From positions 2,630,588 through 2,694,587 of the forward strand of contig NZ_CP013141.1 of the NCBI RefSeq assembly GCF_001442535.1: DNA of 64,000 bases, given 5' to 3'. This document shows, in pieces, positions 22,005-22,720 of this stretch. Within the stretch, counting starts at the first letter, position 1. The number at the start of each line of letters is the position of its first letter. A program made the translations under genes and the position numbers. The notes beneath the pieces were generated by a model. It saw nothing but the letters and a program-made list of their open reading frames with translations. It was not told the DNA's origin and made no database searches. The DNA is from Lysobacter antibioticus. GTDB lineage: Bacteria; Pseudomonadota; Gammaproteobacteria; Xanthomonadales; Xanthomonadaceae.

Positions 22005-22720
22005 GCCTTGCCCTTGCCCCAGCCTTGCCCTTGCCCTTGCCCTTGCCCTTGTCCTTGCCGTTGCCGTTGCCGTTGCCGTTGCCGTTGCCGTTGCCGTTGC
22101 CGTTGCCGTTGCCGTTGCCGTTGCCGAGATTTTGATCTGCTTTGCCGCTTTACCGGTCAAGTGGAGACCCGGAGGGCGCCGCACAGGACGTGCGGCGTTT
22201 TTCGATAGGACAAGGATGTCCTATCGAAAAATCCCGGCGCAGGCATCGCACTTGTGGCCTGTGCCCTTGCAAGGAGAGCCCTTTTCTTTGGTTACCTTTG
22301 ACCGAAGGGAATCCAGACGGACTTTTGGGCTTAGCAAAAGAAAGTAACCCGGCCGCGTCAGCGGACGGAAGCTTTGCTCTTGCTTGTTAGGAACCTCGCG
22401 AGACCGGTCGCGACTCACGTCGCGCCTGCAAAAGTAGCTCTGCTGTTGCGTGTGGCTTCTATAAAAGCAAGATCAAACGCCAAAAGCTTCCGCCACTAAA
22501 GCGGCGGGTTACTTTCTTTTGTCATAAGCAACAAAAGAAAGGTAACCAAAGAAAAATGCTTTTCTTTGAATCACAGGCCCGCATGAGCGATGCATACGCA
22601 GGGCTTTTTCATACGGGACATCCCTGTCCCGATGAAAAACGGCGCGCATCCCTGCGCGCCGCCCTCCGGGTCTTCGATTGCCTTCGCCAGTTCGAAACGG
22701 CGCACAGCAACAACAGCAAC
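22005..22720. repeat. Paired-hairpin interspersed element, copy B (two inverted modules)
   Basis: The head tract is long: CCTTGC-like units at 22005-22056, then eleven GCCGTT units at 22057-22122. The left module has hairpin 1 (22177-22197, loop AGGAC) and hairpin 2 (22198-22231, loop AAGGAT, so ACAAGGATGT at 22210-22219). The right module lies inverted at about 22455-22720: hairpin 3 at 22508-22547, hairpin 2 with ACAGGGATGT on the minus strand (22618-22627), hairpin 1 at 22641-22660, and a CAACAG-rich head. It sits between convergent genes (the small plus-strand protein and minus-strand fecR), so each gene reads into one module in its sense direction. Confidence 0.88.
22406..22429 (-). repeat. 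Degenerate GTAG-type REP inside element copy B
   Basis: A decayed inverted REP, with GGTCGCGACTCACGTCGCGCC at its core. It lies between the two tails of element B, where copies A and C have only a short spacer. Confidence 0.5.

Follow-up and report, generated by a model that had tools for sequence, protein, structure and literature searches.

Dispersed double-hairpin modules with conserved GGA loops in Lysobacter antibioticus and its order: candidate RsmA-binding RNAs inside a REP-like repeat

Introduction

Several intergenic regions of Lysobacter antibioticus carry a repeat whose hairpins display the trinucleotide GGA in their loops, which raises the question of whether these loops are sites read on RNA by the post-transcriptional regulator RsmA/CsrA or incidental features of a repeat that acts at the DNA level. 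The former had been proposed in an earlier note on the 64-kb stretch of DNA analysed here (the window) from the 5.77-Mb, single-contig genome. Here we compute the anatomy, copy number and location of the modules formed by these hairpins, the covariation of their stems around fixed loops, and their co-occurrence with csrA. A literature search by title and abstract opening, covering few subscription papers, returned no description of this repeat.

Results

Anatomy of the modules in the window

Direct reading and a search with R1, a covariance model built from 25 modules of this genome and nine others of the genus, locate nine modules in the window, each consisting of two adjacent hairpins (HP1 and HP2) with GGA in both loops. 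In the element at 22.2 kb, the left module (22167–22240, plus strand, R1 89.5 bits) is composed of a leader, ACCCGGAGGG, followed by HP1, HP2 and TCCC. As judged from sequence and fold, HP1 (22177–22197) carries the loop AGGAC with GGA at 22186–22188 and is followed by a T-run, and HP2 (22198–22231) has the stem TTTTTCGATAGGACA / TGTCCTATCGAAAAA and the loop AGGA with GGA at 22214–22216, reading ACAAGGATGT across the loop. The right module of the same element (22596–22671, minus strand, 98.4 bits) is inverted and has the loop GGGA in both HP1 and HP2. Between the two lies a CAAAAGAAAGTAACCCG box (22335–22351, plus strand), which belongs to the inner half of the left unit and whose partner arm is at 22505–22521, as found from the inverted repeat I5 and the unit consensus. 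The elements at 12.1 kb (left module 12149–12222, plus strand, 84.3 bits; right module 12497–12572, minus strand, 95.7 bits) and at 27.9 kb (27912–27985, plus strand, 86.5 bits; 28282–28357, minus strand, 96.7 bits) are likewise built. A composite at 36.8 kb is arranged outward, its right module coming first (36824–36899, minus strand, 95.8 bits), and left modules are found at 37.07 kb (37074–37147, plus strand, 90.7 bits) and 37.43 kb (37431–37504, plus strand, 88.4 bits).

In HP2, the left modules at 22.2, 37.07 and 37.43 kb read ACAAGGATGT and those at 12.1 and 27.9 kb ACAGGGACGT; all four right modules, on the minus strand, have ACAGGGATGT in HP2 and ATGGAT or AGGGAT in HP1. The loop sequences that the earlier note had assigned to left and right modules are thus correct on direct reading. 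Its claim that GGA always lies on the head-to-tail strand, also in inverted modules, holds for all nine: a leader resembling ACCCGGAGGG opens each module, and the strand running inward from it carries GGA in both loops, also in the inverted copy at 36.8 kb. The unpaired GGA of the leader is itself variable, being replaced by GAA, GCA or GTA in relatives. Eight modules were folded, and all eight are more stable than dinucleotide shuffles (z −4.1 to −6.7), with stems of 8–15 bp and, in the minimum free energy fold, an outer stem of varying register that closes both hairpins.

Hexanucleotide microsatellites (GTTGCC/GTTGCT, GATCTG) lie in or beside the repeat units (22049–22132, 36652–36711 and 12062–12108), and GTAG-type REP hairpins adjoin them (28457–28548, 36583–36655, 37269–37334 and 37741–37806). 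The window also holds two very long open frames (12935–21766, plus strand, 2943 aa; 52581–59858, minus strand, 2425 aa).

Copy number, repeat unit and taxonomic range

A first search of the genome with R1 gave at least 150 matches, and a second search of 118 stretches around them, together with the window, raised the count to at least 218 distinct modules in 122 clusters, which by strand comprise 42 inward pairs, 32 outward pairs, 38 single modules and 10 larger groups. From the consensus of 70 copies per class, the repeat unit is estimated at about 270 nt and consists of a GTTGCC/GTTGCT microsatellite, the module, about 50 nt and a GGTTAC...CAAAAGAAAGTAACC hairpin; right copies continue with CCGCTTTAGTGGCGG and CTTTTGGCGTTTGATCTTG, after which a GTAG-type REP is often found. 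Units bearing the module are found singly and in pairs of either relative orientation, which rules out reading the repeat as a fixed element of 500 bp.

The module is present in all 20 genomes of the genus, that of L. antibioticus included, and in 102 of 198 genomes (39 of 54 genera) of the family (R1, E ≤0.001), in 100 of 299 genomes of the order and in 29 of 369 genomes of the class, two of these 29 being from the family (both E ≤0.0001). Searches over more than 40 genomes were run with stricter filters and scored 13–24 candidates per genome, so that the numbers of modules per genome from these searches are lower bounds. With the whole element, blastn finds matches in 13 of 21 genomes, all of the same genus; owing to stem divergence, the wider family escapes a search by sequence alone. 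Among named records, a degenerate pattern of the left module retrieves only L. antibioticus strains 13-6 and HS124 (four stretches).

Stems change while GGA loops stay

The alignment A6 comprises 98 distinct modules (102 matches) from 69 loci of relatives, of which 25 are from the same genus (some of them also used to train R1), 30 from other genera of the family and 43 from other families. All 23 stem pairs show two-sided change, and 98.6% of the cells are paired, a fraction that drops to 31–56% when the partner is slid by 1–3 columns, in an alignment that, being model-fitted, favours the structure. However, model fitting can hardly account for as many as 40 distinct HP1 and 67 distinct HP2 arms, and A2, the initial MAFFT alignment to which a structure was added by hand, gives two-sided change at 15 of 23 pairs and 96.4% paired cells as against 33–51% when slid. 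Around these changing stems, GGA is retained in the HP1 loop of 97, the HP2 loop of 95 and both loops of 94 of the 98 modules, and outside the genus in 72 (HP1) and 71 (HP2) of 73. GGA is missing from one HP1 loop, which reads CATGAATG, and from one HP2 loop, which reads ATGAAT; in two further copies HP2 is broken. Six loci from the class-level search, all outside the order, have GGA in five HP1 loops (the sixth, L300, has CAUAGAUG) and in all six HP2 loops.

Within the genome of L. antibioticus, GGA is kept in the HP1 loop of 118 and the HP2 loop of all of 119 distinct modules, a set taken from the best 150 of 188 matches plus 39 others, 38 low-scoring rows being left out. Counted by class, leaving out 73 exact duplicates and 26 copies of odd length or without class, GGA is departed from in none of 84 right copies and one of 35 left copies, of which only the HP2 count is unconditional because the pattern used for classing required GGA in HP1. 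The base preceding GGA in the 84 right copies varies (G 48, T 27, A 9 in HP1; G 66, A 11, T 7 in HP2), with GGA itself in 84 of 84. When copies were selected blind to the loop, by leader and TTTT, 74 of 77 distinct copies were parsed with GGA in the HP1 loop; inspection by eye showed the remaining three to be two mis-parsed copies that do contain GGGA and one degenerate copy. Although R1 includes the loops, modules with a GAA loop still score 63–76 bits with it, far over the threshold, indicating that any bias of the search towards GGA is small. As loop controls within the 118 loci (overlapping stretches counted), GTAG-type REP hairpins have GGA in 1 of 268 and terminator-like hairpins outside modules in 0 of 33. 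One sequence among these 33, GGCGCACCGATGTGCGCC, seen on both strands and not reported by R1, looks like a decayed HP1 lacking GGA.

When many copies genome-wide are compared, GGA is therefore found not at random positions, the outcome that the earlier note had held against its own idea, but in the loops of nearly all copies. Such constancy might in principle arise because young duplicates correct one another by gene conversion, the loop being functionless, and the genome does contain many near-identical copies (73 of its 218 modules are letter-identical to another) with stems that look homogenised. Homogenisation would not, however, spare the loop alone, and it accounts neither for loops that stay while stems differ widely between genera and families nor for the free variation of the base before GGA; this explanation is already disfavoured, and we regard it as highly improbable. 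As judged from these alignments, the loops are very likely under selection as a recognition site.

Position, orientation and age of the copies

With genes called by our own codon model, trained on the window, and not taken from curated annotation, all clusters fall outside called genes; 64 lie in convergent, 53 in tandem and 2 in divergent settings, three others lack a flank, and 117 of 119 clusters are downstream of at least one gene. Module-free gaps of at least 100 nt at the same loci are distributed quite differently (10 convergent, 110 tandem and 57 divergent), so that module copies are placed at gene 3′ ends and avoid promoters. This placement fits either repeats that are tolerated there or RNA sites met by read-through. 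As to orientation, modules between tandem genes are sense in 47 and antisense in 50 cases; among lone ones, five are sense and eight antisense, which disfavours a strict sense-strand role in the 3′UTR. Between convergent genes, the module met first is more often antisense (74 cases) than sense (54). Inward pairs outnumber outward ones 28 to 9 in tandem settings, the ratio being 14 to 23 in convergent settings (Fisher p 0.002), and both types of pair present one sense copy per direction. These orientations do not demand a role in the 3′UTR.

Being at 3′ ends and carrying at least TTTT directly 3′ of HP1 in all nine modules of the window, that is, a GC hairpin with a U-run, with pairs that could serve both strands, the modules might alternatively be mainly bidirectional intrinsic terminators between genes whose GGA loops are incidental. 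Yet in several species of the same genus the T-run is replaced by GCGCCAC or the like while hairpins and loops are kept, so that termination alone is rejected as the general function; moreover, GGA is absent from the other terminator-like hairpins, and antisense-first placement is common. We thus consider it distinctly unlikely that termination is the main role.

We compared 49 distinct loci of the same genus, as returned by the searches rather than sampled at random, with the module loci of L. antibioticus, which cover 12.7% of its genome. A flanking gene is shared on at least one side in 28 of them and on both sides in 15. The shared flanks indicate that module positions are often older than the species, arguing against mere recent spread. 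Stem sequences vary from species to species at these shared orthologous sites, and GGA is retained in the loops apart from one GAA in L058. In four groups of loci (L186/L081, L157/L041/L066, L189/L087/L040 and L222/L073/L078), the stem letters are typical of the species and not of the site, and copies inside one genome seem to change their stems together.

The strand that folds was also considered through wobble pairs. On the sense strand, the stems of the genome contain 12 G.U versus 18 A.C pairs, 14 of the latter being at the loop-closing position of HP2 in left modules (hexaloop AGGGAC). With these set aside, the counts are 12 versus 4 in this genome and 11 versus 3 in relatives (loop-closing pairs likewise left out), and 23:7 combined (p 0.005), a test that we hold to be weak because the exclusion was chosen after seeing the data. 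The pairing letters thus give weak support to the sense strand as the folding strand.

The main rival explanation is that the hairpins belong to a selfish, non-autonomous mobile or REP/REPIN-like repeat and are recognised as DNA, a transposase or another protein reading the folded single strand including the loop. Like REP, BIME and REPIN sequences, the modules are numerous between genes, where they stand alone or as inverted pairs next to gene 3′ ends; the abundance and the mixture of single, inward, outward and larger groupings described above, the absence from called genes and near-absence from divergent gaps, a distribution usual for REPs, the likeness of stems within a species, the adjoining GTAG-REPs, and the presence in the genome of three matches to Y1_Tnp (RAYT-type) would all agree with this. 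They differ from RAYT-associated REPs, however, in having two hairpins with fixed loops, no constant GTAG/CGTC tag and no adjoining RAYT. No module occurs within 1.5 kb of the three Y1_Tnp matches (L235–L237; R1, E up to 1), and mobilisation by a RAYT was rejected on this ground. Searches of plasmid records with 96 bases of the left module and of phage records with 91 bases of the right module returned no match. The age of the positions, the G.U excess, which if real favours one strand, and a loop pattern that is that of an RNA-binding protein also speak against it, and we consider a DNA-level element unlikely, though less so than a terminator.

Comparison with known RNAs

Searches with Rfam at gathering cut-offs returned only a tRNA in the window. 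On 801 bases around the 22.2-kb element, the top Rfam match is TwoAYGGAY, located at the right module (32.4 bits, E 0.0046; below the cut-off of 43). Of 32 loci of relatives scanned (E up to 0.5), six match TwoAYGGAY (RF01731; best 39.9 bits, at L269, under the same cut-off) and five match RsmW (RF02809; 31.0–33.4 bits, under a cut-off of 52), both belonging to the same Rfam clan, CL00106. Since the unrelated families MIR839, mir-6132 and symR have better E-values in those searches, these matches are leads that count only together with the evidence from loops and architecture. A near-threshold match to the manganese riboswitch (43.3 bits versus 45) was also seen in a relative, at L083:1097–1199.

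TwoAYGGAY has been predicted by a motif scan to bind CsrA (PMC4333381). It shares with the module an adjacent pair of GGA-loop hairpins in a short closing stem, and its alignments span HP1, HP2 and the closing stem of the module. TwoAYGGAY loops read AYGGAY, and the base before GGA is often a purine (G or A) in L. antibioticus, T being the commonest single form in relatives. A further difference is that the modules number hundreds per genome, dispersed inside a larger repeat. RsmW of Pseudomonas aeruginosa, an sRNA reported to bind RsmA with a Kd of 11.5 nM and probably cut from a 3′UTR (PMC4950607), has GGA hairpins and a likely 3′UTR origin in common with the modules, but is a single locus with seven GGA motifs. 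RsmU (sRX061), from the comEA 3′UTR of Xanthomonas campestris, is reported to bind RsmA in vitro and in vivo, and its GGA-to-AAU mutant to retain both RsmA binding and effect (PMC7694677), so that its dependence on GGA is not clean. RsmU comes from a family of the same order and is located in a 3′UTR, and similar hairpins, for example GGACAGGATGTCC, occur in putative comEA 3′UTRs of the genomes inspected; RsmU, however, is a single locus with several GGA hairpins followed by a terminator. We inspected 230 nt past the stop of putative comEA genes (short frames with an HHH_3 domain) in 13 genomes and found at least three GGA hairpins in 10, that of L. antibioticus included, one in one and none in two. 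As R1 gives at most 18.4 bits at these loci, the module is a different RNA and not the counterpart of RsmU, and single-locus sponge candidates thus exist beside the dispersed modules. The putative comEA 3′UTR of L. antibioticus (L260, about 709 kb), with several GGA hairpins, is itself a likely counterpart of RsmU and a sponge candidate.

Resemblance of the loops to RsmA/CsrA sites

The loops follow the pattern CA-N-GGA-U/C-G or CA-GGA-U/C-G. According to PMC7652899, the CsrB repeat is CAGGA(U/A/C)G, the SELEX consensus is RUACARGGAUGU, and the ligand of RsmE is an ANGGAN hexaloop with variable N bases. The fit to the CsrA consensus that the earlier note had proposed stands in that the module loops closely resemble the published CsrB and RsmE motifs, the free N included; it is less exact for HP2 of the left modules at 12.1 and 27.9 kb, which misses the SELEX core by one base. 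Furthermore, the SELEX hairpins mostly had at most four contiguous pairs (PMC7652899), and the longer stems of the modules count against a high affinity for CsrA. The likeness to the layout of CsrB/RsmZ-type sponges is also partial: GGA is in the hairpin loops, but there are only two such hairpins per module, with a variable leader GGA and stems of 8–15 bp, and the second module of a paired unit is antisense rather than part of one transcript with many GGA hairpins.

The genome encodes a canonical RsmA that keeps L4 and R44, residues that have been named as critical (PMC7652899), and a second, divergent CsrA-like protein is found as an open frame of 94 aa at about 4.04 Mb (L032). In the sample of 299 genomes of the order, csrA is present in all 100 module-bearing genomes, and none of the 56 genomes without csrA has a module (Fisher p 7e-12), an association that is confounded by descent, as the 20 csrA-less genomes shown are from families f3, f6, f8 and f9; 143 genomes have csrA without a module at this threshold. 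Taken together, loops that are nearly invariant against the turnover of stems, the equality of motifs, the co-occurrence with csrA and the near-matches in clan CL00106 support the proposal of the earlier note that the loops are putative RsmA/CsrA sites, and we consider RsmA/CsrA the probable reader of the GGA-loop site.

Discussion

From the sequence evidence described above, we regard the modules as an order-wide, dispersed family of double-GGA hairpins that most likely represent an RsmA-binding RNA embedded in a REP-like repeat. In the predicted mechanism, the structured RNA module would be a pair of hairpins within a short outer stem, each loop presenting CA(N)GGA(U/C)G. It has been proposed that two sites on the same RNA may be occupied by one CsrA dimer (PMC7652899), and a natural reading is that a single RsmA/CsrA dimer bridges the loops of HP1 and HP2. 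The module forms the outer part of the repeat unit of about 270 nt, single or paired at gene 3′ ends, where transcription past the ends of genes would expose the hairpins. The hundreds of copies could then serve as distributed, transcription-coupled RsmA sites that titrate RsmA, mark particular mRNA 3′ ends, or both. We infer that the modules are transcribed and bind RsmA, and assign a probability of roughly 0.55 to the copies binding RsmA and acting by titration or 3′-end marking.

We further speculate, as a possibility that we rate as somewhat unlikely, that the repeat family has spread RsmA-dimer sites, held by selection, to the 3′ ends of at least 100 transcription units per genome, so that global transcription would set the level of free RsmA and RsmA would act as a 3′-end factor on many mRNAs, replacing or adding to the single-locus sponges.

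In the current view, Csr/Rsm control rests on a few sponge RNAs and 5′UTR sites. If hundreds of copies at 3′ ends bind RsmA, the pool of unbound RsmA would vary with the transcriptome as a whole, and repeats of one family would form a main component of a global regulatory circuit throughout an order to which biocontrol species such as Lysobacter and plant-associated Xanthomonas belong. The set of modules also constitutes a ready dataset on the long-standing question of whether abundant intergenic repeats of bacteria have a function.
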